Part shown: positions 645 to 21,335 of the stretch, one piece after another
Position numbering within the stretch: the first letter of the stretch is position 1
Layout of the letters: every line of letters starts with the position of its first letter
NCBI GenBank assembly: GCA_030043455.1
Contig: JASHXQ010000083.1
Location: 1-22,199, forward strand
Direction of reading: 5' to 3'
Length of the DNA stretch: 22,199 bases
DNA from: Nitrososphaerales archaeon
GTDB lineage: Archaea; Thermoproteota; Nitrososphaeria; Nitrososphaerales; CADDZS01
Translations under genes and position numbers: made by a program
The notes under the pieces: model-generated
What the model was told of the DNA's origin: nothing
The model's input: the letters and a program-made list of their open reading frames with translations, nothing else
The model's database searches: none

Positions 645-653
645 GAAATATTA
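645..653 (+). promoter_or_regulatory. TATA/BRE-like promoter of the cyclase gene
   Basis: GAAATATTAA lies about 32 nt upstream of the TTG at 682, the spacing expected for an archaeal BRE plus TATA box driving a leaderless transcript. No Shine-Dalgarno is visible in front of 682, which supports this reading. Confidence 0.5.
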
Positions 654-681
654 ACTTCCGGTAGAGACGGGTTTCCGGGCT

Positions 682-3264
682 TTGTCAGATAGGGAGCCGG
701 ATGAAGCCGGAAGAAAACTCGCAGCGGTGATGTTCACCGATATCGTAGGATACACCGCTCTCTCCCAGAAAAATGAAAGCTTGGCTATGGAATTGCTGGA
801 AGAGCACCGCAAAAAAGTCCGGCCACTCTTGGCAAAACACGGTGGAGTGGAAATCAAAACAATCGGTGATGCTTTCCTCGTCGAGTTTCCCAGCGCTCTC
901 GGGGCGGTCCGGAGTGCTATTGATGTCCAGCAGGCCATACACGAAATGAATTCCGGAAGATCACTGGGAAAGAGGATCCAGCTGCGCATTGGTATCCACT
1001 TGGGGGATGTAATTCACAGCTCCGGCGACATCTATGGGGATGCTGTCAATGTAGCTTCACGAATTCAACCCCTCGCAGAACCCGGAGGAATTTGTATCAC
1101 TGAGCAGGTCTACGCACACATCCGACACCAGCTTAGTAATCTCCAGATGTTGAGTCTTGGGAAGCGCGAGCTGAAAAATGTGGATCAATCGGTGGAGATT
1201 TACAAACTTGAAATTCCCCGGGTGAAGAAAGGTCGCGAGACAAAGGACGTCAGAGGACCGGTTTTGGATCGAACCCGAGTAGTGGTCCTCCCATTAATCA
1301 ATATGATCACCGAGAGTGGAAGCGAATATTTTGCAGATGGGTTGACAGAGGAGCTCACCTCTACACTATCCCGAATCAGTGGTCTCCATGTTATTTCCCG
1401 GACTTCTGCCGCCCAGTACAAGAACGCGACGAAGAAAATCCTCGAGATCGGTAAGGAGCTCGGAGTGGGGACAGTGATCGAGGGGAGCGTACGCAAGTCG
1501 GGCAATCGCGTGAGGATCGCTGTCCAGCTAATAGATGTGCTGACAGACGAGCATCTCTGGGCCGAGAATTACGACCGGCAATTCGAGGATGTATTCGCGA
1601 TCCAAAGTGACATCGCACGGAGGGTCGCTGGTTCTCTGAAGGTGCAGCTCATTCCAGGAGAAATGAAGCAGGTGGAGCGTGTTGCGACCACCAACAGCGA
1701 AGCCCACAATCTGTACTTTAAAGGGAGATATCTGTGGAGGCAGCGCACGCACGAGGGACTTTCTAGGGCGATCGAGTTCTTCAAAGAAGCCATTGAAAAA
1801 GATCCAAGATACGCACTGGCTTACTCTGGCATCTCGGACTGTTACACTGCCTTGACAGTGTACGGCCATTCTCCAGTGGAAGAGACTCTGACGAAAGAAA
1901 GACTCGCAGCTTTGCGCGCTGTCGAATTGGATGAAAGTCTGTCTGAGGCTTACAACTCTCTCGGAGCGGCCCACATGTTGAAGGATGAATATCCCGAAGC
2001 CGAGATAGCCTACAGTCGTTCTATCGAGCTCAATTTGAATTATTCTGCGGCGCATCACTGGTATGCTCAGCTCTTGGCGATTCTTGGCAGAGGCGAAGAG
2101 GCGGTAAGAGAGGCTGAGCGGGCCAGAGAGTTGGATCCCCTATCGCCGACGACTTTTATGACGCTGGGGTTCGTGCATTTTCACTCAGGAAATCTGCCGG
2201 CCGCGATAGCAGTGCTAGAGAACTACCGCGAAATCGATCCAAACTATCTTCCGGCAAGTCTTTGGCTGGGAATCGCTTACACAGAAAGCTTGAGATTTGA
2301 CGAAGGGATTAATCTGCTGAAAATTGCGGCTCAGAAGCTCCCTGTAGCAAAAGCTGGGCTAGCCTATGCCCTTGCTAAGGCAACTAGGCAGAACGAGGCG
2401 CTTCAAACCCTGGCAGAGATTGAAAAAACAGCTGACGACCGGTTCGTCAAGGCAGAGATCGCCGGTGTCTACTTGACTCTTGGGATGAAGGAAAAGTTTG
2501 CCTTCTGGAGTGATCGAGCTTTCGCTGAAGCGGGTCCGGGATCGTATTTTCTGCTGCAATTTTACCCTTGGACTCGCCAAGTTCGGAGGGAAGAAGGTTT
2601 GAAGGGAAATCGCCAAGTCGAACGCGTCACCCAGAGATCCTCATTTGATGAATTTCTTTCCGATGGTCTACCTCTAAAGTCGACTTTGCTAATTGTCGGT
2701 GGAGCTGAAGTGGGTAAGGAGGCAGTAGGCTATCGTATTGTTAGTGCGGGTCTCTCCAAAGGAGAGTTGATCGTGTACCTGACCGGACTCTCCACGCGAG
2801 AAGTTCTACGAGGAATGAACGCCTTTGGGATAGCAGTAACCGGAGCCGATCAAAGTAGCCTCTTTTGGATTTCGGGGGAAGGAGGACATCTAACATACAA
2901 CCCCAACGATCTCAGTGGACTGTCGTTCAAGCTGAAGGAGACTTTGAAGAAAAATCGTGACCGGAGAATCCGGATAGTCACTGATACTCTGTCGCCCCTG
3001 CTGATGCTCAATTCTAAAGAAACTGTCTATCGATTCCTCTCGCAATTGTTCTCCGAAGTGAAGCAATACGATGCGGTTCTGGTCGCAACTTTGGAGGAAG
3101 CCATGCACGAACCGGGAGTAGTCGCAGCTATGAAGCAGCTCTTCGACGGTTTCATGGAAGTCAATTCTACTGAGGGGAAGGAAGGTATGCCGGTCAGGAC
3201 GGTCCAAGTCAAGAAGCTGCGAGGGGTCTCTGTGCCGGAGGAATCGAGAAGTTTTACTCTCTGA
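682..3264 (+). CDS. Class III adenylate cyclase - FlgO/TolB-like - TPR - KaiC-like fusion protein
   Basis: This 860-residue signalling protein probably makes cAMP from ATP. The class III cyclase domain spans about residues 10-180 and has all expected catalytic positions: metal Asp D20 (FTDIVGYT) and D63 (TIGDAF), adenine-specifying K59 and D116, and transition-state N123 and R127 (NVASRI). Residues about 197-325 form a FlgO/TolB-N-like domain (ADGLTEELTSTLSRI, GTVIEGSVRKSGNRVRIAVQL), and TPR-like helical repeats follow at about 340-625. This much is a common bacterial cyclase architecture. Residues about 650-850 add a RecA/KaiC-like domain with a degenerate Walker A (GGAEVGKE, 672-679) and a Walker B-like strand (IRIVTDTLS, D767). 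No membrane segment is seen. The TTG start at 682 directly precedes SDREPDEAG, with a TATA box at the leaderless distance and no upstream in-frame alternative. The gene converges on the MBL gene with 14 bp between stops. Confidence 0.92.
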   Translation: MSDREPDEAGRKLAAVMFTDIVGYTALSQKNESLAMELLEEHRKKVRPLLAKHGGVEIKTIGDAFLVEFPSALGAVRSAIDVQQAIHEMNSGRSLGKRIQLRIGIHLGDVIHSSGDIYGDAVNVASRIQPLAEPGGICITEQVYAHIRHQLSNLQMLSLGKRELKNVDQSVEIYKLEIPRVKKGRETKDVRGPVLDRTRVVVLPLINMITESGSEYFADGLTEELTSTLSRISGLHVISRTSAAQYKNATKKILEIGKELGVGTVIEGSVRKSGNRVRIAVQLIDVLTDEHLWAENYDRQFEDVFAIQSDIARRVAGSLKVQLIPGEMKQVERVATTNSEAHNLYFKGRYLWRQRTHEGLSRAIEFFKEAIEKDPRYALAYSGISDCYTALTVYGHSPVEETLTKERLAALRAVELDESLSEAYNSLGAAHMLKDEYPEAEIAYSRSIELNLNYSAAHHWYAQLLAILGRGEEAVREAERARELDPLSPTTFMTLGFVHFHSGNLPAAIAVLENYREIDPNYLPASLWLGIAYTESLRFDEGINLLKIAAQKLPVAKAGLAYALAKATRQNEALQTLAEIEKTADDRFVKAEIAGVYLTLGMKEKFAFWSDRAFAEAGPGSYFLLQFYPWTRQVRREEGLKGNRQVERVTQRSSFDEFLSDGLPLKSTLLIVGGAEVGKEAVGYRIVSAGLSKGELIVYLTGLSTREVLRGMNAFGIAVTGADQSSLFWISGEGGHLTYNPNDLSGLSFKLKETLKKNRDRRIRIVTDTLSPLLMLNSKETVYRFLSQLFSEVKQYDAVLVATLEEAMHEPGVVAAMKQLFDGFMEVNSTEGKEGMPVRTVQVKKLRGVSVPEESRSFTL

Positions 3265-4704: not shown

Positions 4705-5178
4705 TCACTTTTTGCAATAGTTCGACAGCCCGCCCAGAAAATAATTCCATCCGGAATCGGCGTCCTTCGAAAACTGCTTTGCAATATTGGACTGGATTAC
4801 CGTGACACGTGTTTTTCCATCCGGAAGGCTATCCAAGAGCCAGGTCACCACGGAGCTGGAAATCCGGGGGTTACTGTCCACCGTTTGGGAATCCCAAGTA
4901 TAGGACAGCTTCTTGTCGGGCTCTAGTTCAAGTATCTTCCCACGGAGGATCGTATCCAAGTTTCTGTCACCCCAATGATACTTGAACTCGTACTCGCCAC
5001 CCACCCTCGCATCCATCTTCGCCGCTTGGGGCATCCAGTGGACAAGCTCCTCTTCATCGGTCAGTGCTTTGAATACCCTTTCCGGAGGCGCGTCGACAAC
5101 AATACTTTTCCTGATCTCTTCAGTTGCTTCCAAATCTTTTCTACTTCTTGCTTTTTCTTTGCTTCTTGGACTCGACAT
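4705..5178 (-). CDS. SRPBCC-domain protein, AHSA1-like
   Basis: A 157-residue START/Bet v1-fold protein of the AHSA1 (activator of Hsp90 ATPase homologue 1-like) family. The diagnostic opening RKSIVVDAPPERVFKALTD is present, followed by GGEYEFKYHWGD, ILELEPDKKLSYTWDSQ and RVTVIQSNIAKQFS, ending in a hydrophobic helix (WNYFLGGLSNYCKK). Such proteins bind small hydrophobic ligands in a cavity, and the ligand here is unknown. The first 38 nt of the ORF (ATG 5178) overlap the ArsR gene, and the N-terminal 20 residues are rich in K, R and E, so a start slightly downstream cannot be excluded. Pairing of an ArsR-type regulator with an overlapping AHSA1-like gene is a widespread operon, usually read as a regulator and the protein it controls. 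Confidence 0.88.
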   Translation of the reverse strand: MSSPRSKEKARSRKDLEATEEIRKSIVVDAPPERVFKALTDEEELVHWMPQAAKMDARVGGEYEFKYHWGDRNLDTILRGKILELEPDKKLSYTWDSQTVDSNPRISSSVVTWLLDSLPDGKTRVTVIQSNIAKQFSKDADSGWNYFLGGLSNYCKK

Positions 5179-5455
5179 ATTGTTTCAAGGCATGCAGTCT
5201 CTCGTCCCAGAAGAGATCAAGAAATCTGACCATTTCGGACATTCCATCTCGATCTACCGAGTAGAGCTTCCTTTGTCCCTCTCTTCGTTCCTTCACCAGA
5301 CCGGCGTCTCTTAGCACCTTGAGGTGCGTGGAGAGAGCTGGGAGGGTGAACTCAAAGTGTGTAGCTATTTCACTTGGAGTCTTTTCTCCATCTTTGAGGA
5401 GTAAAAGTACCTGGCGACGATTGTCGTCTGCTACCGCCTTCCATGCCGAGCCCAT
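5141..5455 (-). CDS. ArsR-family winged-helix transcriptional regulator
   Basis: A 104-residue ArsR/SmtB-type repressor. The wHTH core is clear: WKAVADDNRRQVLLLLKDGE, then TPSEIATHFEFTLPALSTHL as the helix-turn-helix, then KVLRDAGLVKERREGQRKLY as recognition helix and wing. The metal-binding CxC motif of classic ArsR proteins is absent, so sensing is not by arsenic-type thiol coordination. It belongs to the SdpR-like group found beside SRPBCC genes. The ATG start at 5455 is six bases from a perfect 12-bp inverted repeat, which is very likely its own operator. The 3' end overlaps the SRPBCC gene by 38 nt, so the two are co-transcribed. Confidence 0.92.
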   Translation of the reverse strand: MGSAWKAVADDNRRQVLLLLKDGEKTPSEIATHFEFTLPALSTHLKVLRDAGLVKERREGQRKLYSVDRDGMSEMVRFLDLFWDERLHALKQYVESKKQRKSKK

Positions 5456-11055: not shown

Positions 11056-11379
11056 CTACCAATTCGAGAGTTCTGTCTTTTTGTCGCCAGTCGATCTATC
11101 GACGGAAGCATCCTTCTGTAAAGATTCCTCGTTGCTCCCCGAGACTAATTCCCGGATATCATCGTAAGCGTTCATGAAGCGCAGCCCTTTTTCTGTAATG
11201 GTGTAAATCTGAGAACCTTCTTCATACTTCAAAAGCTGGCGGTCCTGAAGAAGCGAGAGGTACTCTTTCAGCTGGGAGTACGACAGATACGCCTTGTACA
11301 TAATACGTGTCCTCGTAGCTCCCGAGTCCAGGGATCTCAAAATCGTATCGATAATCTCTGTACTACTTCGGTACTTCAT
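11056..11379 (-). CDS. Winged-helix DNA-binding protein (HTH_45-like), paralogue 1
   Basis: A small regulator (107 residues from ATG 11379; 110 if the GTG at 11388 is used) of the archaeal winged-helix type often labelled HTH_45. The core is KYRSSTEIIDTILRSLDSGA, RTRIMYKAYLSYSQLKEYLS as helix-turn-helix, then LLQDRQLLKYEEGSQIYTIT as wing, ending TEKGLRFMNAYDDI. The C-terminal 30 residues are polar and variable. ATG 11379 is preferred because the close paralogue at 18270-18593 starts at exactly this residue and because the TATA box at 11402-11410 then sits at leaderless distance. The target genes are unknown. No sensor domain is present, so it may respond to protein partners. Confidence 0.88.
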   Translation of the reverse strand: MKYRSSTEIIDTILRSLDSGATRTRIMYKAYLSYSQLKEYLSLLQDRQLLKYEEGSQIYTITEKGLRFMNAYDDIRELVSGSNEESLQKDASVDRSTGDKKTELSNW

Positions 11380-11401
11380 AAGAATCACGTGTGACTAACA
11401 C

Positions 11402-11777: not shown

Positions 11778-12167
11778 ATGCCCCCACCGGAGTTCAACAA
11801 ACAAAGATCCGCATCTATGATGTCAATGGAATCCCTGCAATCAGGCAAGCGGAAGCGTGGATGGATTGAGATTGTTTGGCTCGTCCTTTCACAATGCACC
11901 GAGGGTTCGGTCAAGACAAGGATCATGTACAGATGCAATTTGAACTCGAAACAGACGCAACAGTATCTCTCGTTCTTGCTGGAATGCAAGTTTCTTGAAG
12001 CTCGTAAGGATCCTAGTCATGTAACCATGAGTTACTACACCACTGAGCAGGGGGTAAGCTTCGTCGAGAAATATGAGCAGCTTCAAGAGGTTTTGGAAAC
12101 AGCGATCTTGCAAACGAAGAATGCTGATCATAGATTCGAAGAAAGGTTTGAAAAAATCACACCATAG
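11778..12167 (+). CDS. Winged-helix DNA-binding protein (HTH_45-like), divergent member
   Basis: A 129-residue protein with the same fold as the two closely related regulators in this window. It has IEIVWLVLSQCTEGSVKTRI as first helix, MYRCNLNSKQTQQYLSFLLE as helix-turn-helix, then KFLEARKDP with the wing YYTTEQGVSFVEKYEQL. About 28 polar residues (PPPEFNKQRSAS) precede the domain and a charged helical tail follows. The IMY and GxxFxxxY positions match the paralogues, but the overall identity is much lower, so it is an older relative. ATG 11778 is the first start; an internal ATG pair lies near 11817. The 3' end overlaps the end of the convergent ATPase gene by 11 nt. Confidence 0.82.
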   Translation: MPPPEFNKQRSASMMSMESLQSGKRKRGWIEIVWLVLSQCTEGSVKTRIMYRCNLNSKQTQQYLSFLLECKFLEARKDPSHVTMSYYTTEQGVSFVEKYEQLQEVLETAILQTKNADHRFEERFEKITP

Positions 12168-13545
12168 GCCTCACTGAGATAACTTCACCGTTCTTCTCGT
12201 TTTGAATGGCATAGAAGTTGCCCCAAGGGTTTTCAGGCTGCACGAATAGGTTTCCTTCGAGTTCAACAATTTTCAATCTCACATCCGCCAGCTCAGTGAC
12301 TTTCTGGGACTTTTCAGAAGATCGGGTGACTATGATGGAGCTACTAAAGCCAGCGATCATCGTTTCGAGCAATTTACTCAAATCTGCTGCATAATTGCTA
12401 TTGAGCAGAGGATCAAGAGTCAAAACTCCCAAGAGTTCGGAATTTTTCACTTTCTTCCTGGCCTTTTCAATGGACCGCTCTAAACTTTGAACCAAGTTTC
12501 CATCCTCGTTTTCTTTCGGCGCGACGATTTGATACAGCACTTCGATCCGCCTTCTCTGTCTCAAGTTGGGAAGAAAAGCCTTCAATAGGACATCGATATC
12601 CTCGGAAGTTACCCCAACCGGAGGCACCAGTGTAGTCGCAGCTTCGTTCTTGCTGGAGTATCCAGCTATTATTCGAGTGATGAAAGGCAGGATGGACCTT
12701 GAGCTTATTGTGGGATCCAGATCTACATTGACAATGGTACGTTTCGGAATTCTTCCCTCCAAGATATCTTGGACCGCGTTGGGAGCGGATGCTCCATTGG
12801 CGACAACCAAGCGATTATTGGCAGGATTATCAATACCCGTGAAAGAGGGAGTCGCCCAAATCAGCTGATCGTACTGATCAAAACTATGGAACACGCCTTC
12901 ATTCAGCGTAAAGAAACTGTGTGGTCTATCAATCTTGACACCACGCAGTTTAGCGAGATGAATCTGTCTGGTCCTCCGATGATTAACATATCCTTCATGT
13001 AATTCAATGACACCATCTACGAGATTATCAAAGATGACTTCTTCAACACTTTCCAGGACGAAGATCAGCTTTGCATGGGCTCGCTGCCTCCAGATCTGCA
13101 AGATCTTGGCATTGGTCATCAAAGCCTCCTTGTCCATGAAGTCACCCACCGCGTCCCAAGTGTCAATCACAATAAGCGGCGAGCTAGCATCCATGAGCTG
13201 ATTCGTTATTCTCTCAAACAACGATTGCGGTTCATCCAGTCTTGCGTCGACAAATGGAGCAATCTCGGTTTTCTCATCCGATTTACTATCCTGATAGTCA
13301 CCAACGTAATTTCGCACCCAAGGGTAGTACTCAAAAAGTTCAGAGATCGCAAGCCTACTCGAGATATACAAACAATTTTGCTTGGAAAGCCACATCGAAA
13401 GAATAGTCAGGGCAAGCGACGTCTTGCCGGTGCCAGCTTCTCCTTTGATAACAAGAGAGTAAGCCTCCTTCGCAAGAAATTGCTCTAATTCGTCGGGGAG
13501 TCTCCGAAGGTCCAGTTCTGGAAGAGCGGCCCGATCTCTCGGCAT
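12157..13545 (-). CDS. KaiC/GvpD-like P-loop ATPase
   Basis: A RecA/KaiC-superfamily ATPase resembling archaeal GvpD-type proteins. From ATG 13545 it is 462 residues. LRRLPDELEQFLAKEAYSLV precedes a perfect Walker A (GEAGTGKTS, 35-43), and Walker B is LIVIDTWDA (D128). A second RecA-like lobe at about 255-435 (ITRIIAGYSSKN, LGVLTLDPLLNSNY) has no P-loop and is probably structural or regulatory. The same frame is open upstream to a possible start at 13761. However, ATG 13545 fits the family N-terminus and has a strong TATA box (13571-13580) at leaderless distance. The longer form would also cover the start of the divergent response regulator. No gas vesicle genes are nearby, so the role is more likely regulatory, like other KaiC-like proteins. 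Confidence 0.85.
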   Translation of the reverse strand: MPRDRAALPELDLRRLPDELEQFLAKEAYSLVIKGEAGTGKTSLALTILSMWLSKQNCLYISSRLAISELFEYYPWVRNYVGDYQDSKSDEKTEIAPFVDARLDEPQSLFERITNQLMDASSPLIVIDTWDAVGDFMDKEALMTNAKILQIWRQRAHAKLIFVLESVEEVIFDNLVDGVIELHEGYVNHRRTRQIHLAKLRGVKIDRPHSFFTLNEGVFHSFDQYDQLIWATPSFTGIDNPANNRLVVANGASAPNAVQDILEGRIPKRTIVNVDLDPTISSRSILPFITRIIAGYSSKNEAATTLVPPVGVTSEDIDVLLKAFLPNLRQRRRIEVLYQIVAPKENEDGNLVQSLERSIEKARKKVKNSELLGVLTLDPLLNSNYAADLSKLLETMIAGFSSSIIVTRSSEKSQKVTELADVRLKIVELEGNLFVQPENPWGNFYAIQNEKNGEVISVRPMV

Positions 13546-13570
13546 CCAAAAAGCTAACAGTGCTTCAGAG

Positions 13571-13580
13571 TATATAATAA
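13571..13580 (-). promoter_or_regulatory. TATA box of the KaiC/GvpD-like gene
   Basis: TTATTATATA on the minus strand, centred about 30 nt upstream of ATG 13545. It is the best TATA match in the window and supports the shorter start. Confidence 0.65.
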
Positions 13581-13676
13581 TTGGAGAGGAATTTTTGCTA
13601 AGAAGAAGGTACAAGAAAAAATTCTCCGGTTTCGGAACTGGCCCTGCCCATTTCCAATTAATCCAAAAATAGGATA

Positions 13677-14102
13677 ATGCATTTATGCCCGAATCAAGGT
13701 TCGCATCTTTCGCCTGCATTGACAAAAATCTTCCTCGTCGATGACGAACCTGATATTGCAAACTCGCTCAGGCTCGGACTCGAGAGGAAGGGCTTCACTA
13801 TAGATGTCTTCACCGATCCGACGGAAGCTCTTGGTAAATACAAACCACGCTTCTACGATCTTTTACTGATTGACATCCGGATGCCAAAACTGAATGGTTT
13901 CGAACTTGTGAGGGAAATCAGAAAGGTTGATGCAGATTCCGAAGTCTGGTTCTTGACTGCCTTTGAAGTATACTATGAGGAATTCAAGAAAATGTTTCCG
14001 GATCTCGACGTGAAGAACTTTATTCGAAAACCAGTATCGTTGAATGAACTAGCTGTGCGAATCGACCAGAGAGTTGCAATGGCTCAAGAAAAGGAACAAT
14101 AG
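13677..14102 (+). CDS. Single-domain response regulator (receiver)
   Basis: A 141-residue CheY-like receiver without output domain. The acidic pair D22/D23 (IFLVDDEPD), phosphoacceptor D66 (LLLIDIRMPKLNG), switch T94 (WFLTAFE) and K118 (IRKPVS) are intact. The start is uncertain: ATG 13677 gives a 16-residue lead before the first strand, while TTG 13719 gives MTKIFLVDDE directly. A TTAAT element near 13658 would place the transcript start around 13687, favouring the TTG. It is divergent from the KaiC/GvpD-like gene, with 131 bp between the preferred starts, which suggests the two are functionally linked. Confidence 0.9.
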   Translation: MHLCPNQGSHLSPALTKIFLVDDEPDIANSLRLGLERKGFTIDVFTDPTEALGKYKPRFYDLLLIDIRMPKLNGFELVREIRKVDADSEVWFLTAFEVYYEEFKKMFPDLDVKNFIRKPVSLNELAVRIDQRVAMAQEKEQ

Positions 14103-18269: not shown

Positions 18270-18593
18270 TTAGTACTCGAAGGCTTCCTGCTTTTTTACG
18301 ATCGGGATCTCATTCACCCGGCTATCAAGGAGAGCCTTGGCCTCGTTAACGCTGGGCACAAGTTCGTTAATTTTATCGTACGCATTCATGAATCTCAGCC
18401 CCTTCTCCGTAAGAGTGTACAGTTGAGAGCCAGGGTTAAAGCTGATCAGCTCTCTCTCTTCTAGCAACTTGAGATACTCCTTCAACTGAGAGTAAGACAT
18501 GTACGCCCGGTACATGATGTGAGTTTTCGTTGACCCAGATCTAATAGATCGAAGCATCGAATCGATTATTTCTGTGCTGCTTCTGTACTTCAT
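18270..18593 (-). CDS. Winged-helix DNA-binding protein (HTH_45-like), paralogue 2
   Basis: A 107-residue regulator very close to the protein at 11056-11379. Both begin MKYRSSTEIID and share SYSQLKEYL in the helix-turn-helix, and GSQ(I/L)YT(I/L)TEKGLRFMNAYD in and after the wing. Most differences in the first 75 residues are conservative, while the last 30 (KALLDSRVNEIPIVKKQEAF) have diverged. The pair therefore probably binds similar DNA but makes different C-terminal contacts. ATG 18593 has a CTTTTATG TATA box (18617-18624), the same box and spacing as paralogue 1, so the promoter was probably duplicated too or kept by selection. Confidence 0.9.
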   Translation of the reverse strand: MKYRSSTEIIDSMLRSIRSGSTKTHIMYRAYMSYSQLKEYLKLLEERELISFNPGSQLYTLTEKGLRFMNAYDKINELVPSVNEAKALLDSRVNEIPIVKKQEAFEY

Positions 18594-20638: not shown

Positions 20639-20670
20639 GTAATACATTTATAGACATCGCATTGTATTAC
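20639..20670. promoter_or_regulatory. Inverted repeat around the TATA box: probable VapBC operator
   Basis: GTAATACA (20639-20646) and TGTATTAC (20663-20670) are exact 8-bp inverted copies with a 16-nt spacer. The ATTTATAG TATA box (20647-20654) lies between them, about 27 nt upstream of ATG 20677. Toxin-antitoxin operons are typically autorepressed through such palindromes, so this is the likely VapB site. Confidence 0.65.
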
Positions 20671-20676
20671 TGTAGC

Positions 20677-20928
20677 ATGCCTGTGATAACGCTTCGAGTG
20701 GACGAGCGTCTAAAAAGAAAAATGGAGGAACTTCGGGAGATAAATTGGAGCGAGGTCGCAAGAAAGGCGATTGAGGAAAAGGTTGCTGAAGCGGAACTCT
20801 GGCGACCTGTTGATGTGCTCTTGCTGAAAAAGGCTTCAGAGGATACCGATTCACTTCGACGCACTGCAAAGGGATGGGATAGTACCAACGAAATCAGGAG
20901 ATGGCGTGAACGAGACCAGCAGCGGTAG
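20677..20928 (+). CDS. vapB: VapB-family antitoxin (ribbon-helix-helix)
   Basis: An 83-residue antitoxin. Residues 1-30 form a ribbon-helix-helix: PVITLRVDERLKRKMEELRE followed by INWSEVARKAIEEKVAEAE. The C-terminal half is charged and extended (DVLLLKKASEDTDSLRRTAK, NEIRRWRERDQQR), as expected for the toxin-wrapping tail. It would bind and neutralise the PIN-domain toxin encoded next and repress the operon. ATG 20677 is chosen because it begins the RHH strand and has a TATA box at leaderless distance; an upstream TTG at 20662 lies inside the operator. The stop at 20926-20928 overlaps the toxin reading region. Confidence 0.88.
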   Translation: MPVITLRVDERLKRKMEELREINWSEVARKAIEEKVAEAELWRPVDVLLLKKASEDTDSLRRTAKGWDSTNEIRRWRERDQQR

Positions 20929-21335
20929 TTGCTGACGCATCGGTCATCGTCAAGTGGTTTGTGAATGAAGCTTTCACCGATCAGTCATTACGGTTGAAAA
21001 AGGCACACGTGGAACTGAGAACGAGAATTGTAGTGCCATCTATTGCAAAGTATGAGATACTGAATGCACTAAAATATTCTGGGGAATTCGGAAATGATGA
21101 GCTCGTTCGAATCTCAAATGACCTTGATAACTATCAGCTTCTAGAAGTTCCCCTCGAACGAAAAAATTCAGAAGCTACGATAGACATCGCTGCAAAATAT
21201 GGAACCACAATTTATGGCGCCTCATATGTCGCTTTGGGCCGGGAAAAGGAACTTCGTGTCTACACTGCTGATGAAAAATTACTGGACAAAACTCGGAACC
21301 TTAGTTTTGTCCGTCACATTCGCGATTACTCGTGA
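20906..21335 (+). pseudogene. vapC: VapC-like PIN-domain toxin, apparently frameshifted and active-site damaged
   Basis: A PIN-domain ribonuclease toxin paired with VapB. The frame containing VVADASVIVKWF (first catalytic Asp) is open from 20910 but has no ATG, GTG or TTG before GTG 20961, which lies after that Asp. In a neighbouring frame GTG 20906 gives M-N-E-T-S-S. Removing one G of the GG at 20924-20925 joins this to VVADASVIVKWF, a normal VapC start, so a one-base insertion is the simplest explanation. The conserved Glu (SIAKYEILNAL) and last Asp (YTADEKLL) remain. The Asp usual in the YDAxYVALA motif is Gly here (IYGASYVALG; codon GGC at 21216-21218). An RNase made from GTG 20961 would lack two acidic residues. 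Taken at face value the toxin is inactive. Confidence 0.72.

Follow-up and report, generated by a model that had tools for sequence, protein, structure and literature searches.

Analysis of a 22,199-nucleotide stretch of DNA from a Nitrososphaerales archaeon (contig JASHXQ010000083.1, assembly GCA_030043455.1; this whole stretch is referred to as the window) revealed a gene for an 860-residue protein in which a class III nucleotide cyclase domain is followed by a CadC/HilA-type module, composed of a TolB-like part and tetratricopeptide repeats (TPR), and by a C-terminal KaiC-like domain, here called GKE-KaiC. The gene, its domains and catalytic residues, the fixed substitutions within a predicted KaiC fold and an architecture conserved in relatives were all recovered computationally, and the domain fusion that the initial annotation had noticed is real. 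The KaiC-type domain is probably a plug-in signalling adaptor, not a clock ATPase. Our overall reading, to which we assign a probability of about 0.5, is that of a soluble adenylate cyclase under a CadC/HilA-type sensor, with a non-hydrolysing, KaiC-derived docking domain that brings it to a shared hub. The features are given below; the roles of the six cyclase residues and of the K-x-R finger are those we take from the class III cyclase and KaiC literature, respectively.

682..3264, + strand: whole gene, cyclase, CadC/TolB-like part, TPR and GKE-KaiC (860 residues, TTG start)
682..1221, + strand: class III cyclase domain, residues 1-180 (Pfam core 15-166, E 1.8e-22)
739..741, + strand: D20, presumed metal-binding Asp
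856..870, + strand: K59 (presumed substrate residue) to D63 (presumed metal residue)
1027..1062, + strand: D116 (presumed substrate residue), N123 and R127 (presumed transition-state residues)
1255..1716, + strand: TolB-like alpha/beta part of the CadC/HilA-type module, residues 192-345
1717..2556, + strand: TPR part, residues 346-625
2605..3261, + strand: GKE-KaiC domain, residues 642-860 (Pfam KaiC 654-858, E 2.2e-15)
2698..2721, + strand: modified Walker A GGAEVGKE, residues 673-680, with Glu680 replacing Thr/Ser
2983..2985, + strand: retained Walker B Asp768 (161/162 domains)
3091..3108, + strand: LEEAMH, residues 804-809, with retained E805 and Met808-His809
3214..3222, + strand: K845-x-R847, retained motif presumed to be the trans-acting finger of KaiC

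A KaiC fold is predicted for the C-terminal domain, which scores above the PF06745 cut-off and carries the altered P-loop noticed in the initial annotation. It is a single KaiC domain spanning residues 642-860, without the CI-CII tandem of clock KaiC. Its nucleotide site was compared across 162 GKE-KaiC domains and 26 canonical KaiC domains. The Thr/Ser position of Walker A, which we take to be the Mg-coordinating residue, is Glu in 157/162 domains and Thr or Ser in 26/26 canonical ones, while the catalytic Glu position after strand 2 is Leu703 in the window protein, with Leu in 155/162 versus Glu in 24/26 canonical domains. Around these substitutions the site is kept: the P-loop Lys is present in 161/162, E805 in 159/162, K845 in 159/162 and R847 in 158/162, the last two also being found in 26/26 canonical domains. 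M808 and H809 occur in 162/162, and a Met-His pair in a single one of the 26 canonical domains (the third domain of P0052). Since the replacement is almost uniform and the rest of the site conserved, simple decay of the P-loop was rejected; the initial annotation was right about the alteration, and its label "degenerate" is misleading for what is a fixed family signature. This signature argues against ATP hydrolysis, and GKE-KaiC domains probably do not hydrolyse ATP. Because of the same two positions, the earlier suggestion that cyclase output could depend on nucleotide state is not supported as far as ATP turnover by the KaiC domain is concerned; binding without turnover may still occur. Judged by its sequence, the window domain is an iKaiC (inactivated KaiC-like) domain as defined in PMC5847659: it belongs to the KaiC superfamily, has lost catalytic residues and is part of a signalling protein.

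Other profiles gave partial or sub-threshold matches. DUF7504 (PF24336) reached 44.2 bits against a cut-off of 27, covering only profile positions 85-179 of 179; DUF835 (PF05763) missed its cut-off of 33.1 with 23.6 bits for the whole protein and 26.5 for the domain alone, and MEDS (PF14417) was absent from the window protein's matches at E ≤ 1. The Elp4 profile PAXNEB matched 24/26 domains, and Elp4 chains were matched at E values of 8e-4 to 2e-3.

The domain was found both in fusions and as a stand-alone protein. Searching with the window's own domain returned nine proteins, one of them the window's copy, and searching with a relative's domain returned 56, including 17 canonical KaiC-like proteins (P0046-P0062). 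A profile search limited to short proteins gave 717 matches at E ≤ 1e-10; the best 120 of these, which were examined, are 217-269 residues long and 72-99.6% identical to one another, and in Pfam they match KaiC-like families and no further type of domain. Four family members that carry organism names (P0039, P0118, P0124 and P0174) are from Nitrososphaerales or Thaumarchaeota/Nitrososphaerota. Six architectures are represented among the 42 fusion domains:

Cyclase, TolB-like, TPR, GKE-KaiC: 8 (the window protein, five other complete proteins, and two partial ones without the cyclase part, P0007 and P0039, assigned to this group by kinship)
GKE-KaiC, cyclase, TolB-like, TPR: 1 (P0040)
GKE-KaiC, TolB-like, TPR: 7
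Cyclase, GKE-KaiC: 5 (P0027 partial)
Alpha/beta hydrolase, GKE-KaiC: 16 (P0011-P0026, several partial; the largest fusion group found)
GKE-KaiC, uncharacterised C-terminal region: 5

The C-terminal region of the last group (P0035, P0037, P0042-P0044) was labelled by eye as a winged helix-turn-helix, with no claim of DNA binding; Pfam matched nothing in that of P0044, the only one scanned. No relatives were found in viral contigs. The matching plasmid records number 89, all below 60% identity, and in the two that were inspected an "ATPase domain-containing protein" adjoins a histidine kinase gene.

The history of these pairings was examined with phylogenetic trees. In the domain tree, the window architecture is one clade (support 100/100), the hydrolase fusions form a clade at 96/92, and the domains followed by the uncharacterised C-terminal region do so at 100/99. 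In an extended tree, for which 16 of the 120 stand-alone domains were added by a choice for diversity, eight hydrolase-fusion rows dropped and the canonical domains cut to six, the short cyclase-GKE-KaiC domains are placed among the stand-alone ones, with five label changes, of which starred branches force at least four. A single origin for the pairing of domain and cyclase was rejected by the approximately unbiased (AU) test (p 2.9e-8; 14 domains of the cyclase groups), and a separate AU test on the five short cyclase-GKE-KaiC domains, chosen after inspection of the tree, rejected a single clade for them (p 1.5e-4). The TolB-TPR part of 14 GKE-KaiC proteins is one clade versus 58 bacterial sequences (99/94; two of 60 bacterial open reading frames (ORFs) had been removed for low score), and GKE-KaiC lies N-terminal to this module in some proteins and C-terminal in others, so that its pairing with these partners has come about more than once and in either order. 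The domain has been joined to, or parted from, cyclases more than once, and, with its fixed signature, it accompanies intact cyclases in three or more arrangements without one shared origin of the pairing.

The N-terminal domain has the cyclase fold and scores 80.3 bits with PF00211, against a curated cut-off of 21.9. All six class III catalytic residues that had been listed for it (D20, K59, D63, D116, N123 and R127) are present in one chain. We take K59 and D116 to be an adenylate-type substrate pair; cyclic AMP (cAMP) is the predicted product. The use of cAMP by archaea is poorly understood. A tree of cyclase domains leaves unsettled whether the archaeal cyclases are one clade. The only PADLOC match was a weak one between the cyclase and PycC (E 1.1e-4), which we did not take as evidence of a defence function.

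The middle module, described earlier as FlgO/TolB-like plus TPR, keeps its TPR assignment, and FlgO is replaced by a CadC/HilA-type module. Residues ~191-517, the TolB-like and TPR parts jointly, match the CadC periplasmic domain, whose fold the module shares, while in Pfam TolB_N is below its cut-off (15.3 of 22.4 bits) and FlgO is not listed at E ≤ 10. The module is only 13% identical to the CadC and HilA regulators, the full CadC/HilA equivalog cut-offs are missed by far (75.7 of 589 and 39.4 of 400 bits), and no DNA-binding family is among the Pfam matches of the window protein. The CadC-like part may sense a ligand.

Domains of the KaiC family assemble into rings that hold the nucleotide between subunits. 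In the mechanism we propose, the intact cyclase domain would act as a homodimer controlled by the CadC/HilA-type sensor module, and GKE-KaiC would pack edge to edge into rings with its own copies and with stand-alone GKE-KaiC proteins. The P-loop Lys-Glu pair and the trans-acting Lys-x-Arg fingers would stabilise the subunit interface without ATP turnover, and the Glu beside the P-loop Lys could replace the phosphate-Mg contact, locking the interface. Cyclases, hydrolases and sensors would be gathered at one hub, where cyclase dimerisation or positioning would set cAMP output. We infer ring formation, and control of the cyclase through docking, from the following. The hydrolysis residues are lost while the P-loop Lys, the Walker B Asp and the trans-acting Lys and Arg are kept, which suggests an interface maintained without the hydrolysis chemistry. 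In the GKE-KaiC-TolB-TPR proteins, GKE-KaiC is the only other module, so the sensor must signal through it; in the cyclase-GKE-KaiC proteins it is again the only other module, so it must signal to, or place, the cyclase. Because it can receive or send, is independent of domain order and also stands alone, the domain looks like an assembly adaptor. This reading predicts a direct partnership of stand-alone GKE-KaiC proteins with cyclases, and it suggests that members of the family annotated as "circadian clock protein KaiC" or as "RAD55 family ATPase" may not be ATPases. More tentatively, and on balance doubtfully, the Nitrososphaerota may possess a KaiC-derived signalling bus, in which a large family of single-domain GKE-KaiC proteins forms nucleotide-independent rings and adenylate cyclases, alpha/beta hydrolases and CadC-type sensors plug onto these by a GKE-KaiC copy of their own; archaeal cAMP synthesis would then run through a scaffold repurposed from a clock ATPase.

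Several observations weigh against the adaptor reading. The full-length structure model is poor over the KaiC part, where the alignment is shallow. P0031, a 434-residue cyclase-GKE-KaiC protein, keeps both metal Asp residues and has D59 and N116 in place of the substrate Lys and Asp, possibly reflecting a changed substrate or a dead cyclase; cyclase activity is therefore not universal across the set. The best 120 of the 717 stand-alone proteins are a narrow, top-scoring sample, and their uniformity is a biased view. The domain tree is ambiguous between gain of a cyclase and its later loss, fusion as evidence of interaction is inferential, and in bacteria, cyclases joined to this middle module presumably function without any GKE-KaiC domain. 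Finally, the Lys, Asp and Glu that are retained may still suffice for nucleotide binding.

This last point leads to the rival that survives best, although we consider it unlikely: that the domain has kept its binding of ATP, ADP or some other nucleotide, perhaps in the absence of Mg, and sets cyclase activity by sensing energy charge or a nucleotide, a view close to that of the initial annotation. It would have to accommodate the nearly invariant Glu at the Mg-coordinating position and Leu at the catalytic Glu position, the retention of the final P-loop Gly in just 18/42 fusion domains, and a fusion, P0038, from which the P-loop Lys is altogether absent. Less probable again is a new ligand-binding or enzymatic site, unrelated to ATP hydrolysis, built from Glu680, Asp768, Glu805/806 and His809. 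The strong conservation of the Lys, Glu, Asp, Glu and His positions would not be expected from simple decay, and the Met808-His809 pair, universal here and nearly absent from canonical domains, fits such a site; however, a protein-protein interface would also account for the conservation, and no other catalytic site is indicated by the listed PDB and Pfam matches, which are to KaiC/RecA-like or unnamed families.

A slightly poorer prospect still is that the KaiC domain is a passive dimerisation or stability appendage, leaving all control of the enzyme to the sensor module, as in the bacterial cyclase-TolB-TPR proteins. A genome scan returned 36 loci, all bacterial by title, and no GKE-KaiC domain was found in their 438 ORFs of at least 250 residues; these relatives, in which a cyclase is joined to the module, are presumably functional without the domain. 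Against this stand the strict conservation of the KaiC site and its joining to several partner types, in either order and more than once, and we prefer the reading of GKE-KaiC as an adaptor. That the gene is an assembly chimera or a mis-called ORF can be dismissed, as nothing beyond its TTG start codon speaks for this, and five other complete and two partial relatives have the same domain order at 66-80% identity. The TTG start itself is plausible because the N-terminal residues of P0004, P0006 and P0009 are nearly identical to its own; the database entry P0003 (844 residues) is the same protein with a start 16 residues later, and all catalytic residues still lie inside it. By eye, a TATA-like box, AAATATTAA, lies at window positions 646-654, ~30 bases upstream of the TTG, and would fit a leaderless transcript.

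Among the other genes in the window, a second KaiC/GvpD-like protein (12157-13761, - strand, 534 residues) is present as the initial annotation had noted, and belongs to another family than the domain of the cyclase protein: it has an intact P-loop (GEAGTGKT) and no match to the domain profile at 1e-5, and a link to GKE-KaiC was rejected. The window also encodes TFIIB and an Sso10a-type chromatin protein, which mark it as archaeal. Two small proteins (11056-11388, - strand, and 18270-18593, - strand) share a near-identical N-terminal region, MKYRSSTEIID..., and constitute a local family, with the Sso10a match demonstrated for the 11056-11388 protein only. An AHSA1/SRPBCC gene overlaps an ArsR-like gene (4705-5455, - strand; ArsR-like part 5141-5455, by eye), an arrangement known from bacteria. 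Two small adjacent genes at 20662-21335 (+ strand) resemble a toxin-antitoxin pair by eye, and the second has no Pfam match at 1e-5. Rfam gave no match at gathering scores.

The bacterial cyclase-TolB-TPR proteins (Opitutales, Flavobacteriaceae and Gemmatimonadota) resemble the window protein in having a cyclase followed by the same middle module, and differ from it in lacking GKE-KaiC; 14/36 loci match from the cyclase on, with 30-40% identity in the best segment. Their substrate residues also differ from the K/D of the window protein, being E/K in Opitutales (six ORFs) and Q/D in the flavobacterial proteins (nine ORFs), while one Gemmatimonadota ORF (L004) has K/D like the window protein and another (L002) A/D. 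The Opitutales pair is charge-swapped, E59/K116, in all six ORFs of L001, L003 and L005, and the genes occur in tandem, three in a row in L001 (5185-12334) and two in L005 (9932-14808).

Rv1900c/LipJ and 3mr7, which are alpha/beta-hydrolase-linked cyclases, are among the closest cyclase structures in both sequence and fold. The alpha/beta hydrolase is a partner class common to cyclases of this kind and to GKE-KaiC domains, but in the archaeal set it is attached to the KaiC domain and not to the cyclase. To our knowledge, neither Rv1900c/LipJ nor 3mr7 has a KaiC domain.

Divergent KaiC-like folds serve assembly elsewhere. Elp456 forms a ring. Elp4 and the N-terminal domain of BcsE are, like GKE-KaiC, divergent RecA/KaiC-like folds serving assembly; neither is linked to a cyclase. 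BcsE is reported to have a divergent KaiC-like domain that probably cannot bind ATP, yet associates with itself and with partners (PMC7439463). By analogy, the Elp4 similarity and the BcsE precedent point toward an assembly role for GKE-KaiC. In haloarchaea, the KaiC-like protein CirA regulates motility and shape, and its biochemistry is described as uncharacterised (PMC13286277). Thaumarchaeal cyclases are noted in genome papers, whose available portions do not mention this fusion (PMC9289680, PMC4836417), and a full-text literature search, which did not cover the 2017 KaiC-hub paper, found no description of a cyclase-KaiC fusion.

The nearest precedent is the iKaiC, the term in established use for KaiC-like domains that have been inactivated and take part in archaeal signalling (Makarova 2017, cited in Galperin 2018, PMC5847659). 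As surveyed in the accessible text of PMC5847659, iKaiC domains occur in REC, PAS and HalOD1 contexts and include DUF835 and MEDS types. These hubs share with the window protein a KaiC-superfamily domain, inactivating changes, fused signalling modules and an archaeal origin. In the main text of that survey the word "cyclase" occurs 0 times, and the GKE signature, the cyclase, CadC-like and hydrolase partners and the stand-alone family were not found in its available text (PMC5847659). What the present analysis adds to the iKaiC hubs is a distinct, fixed iKaiC adaptor type carried on class III cyclases and other modules.
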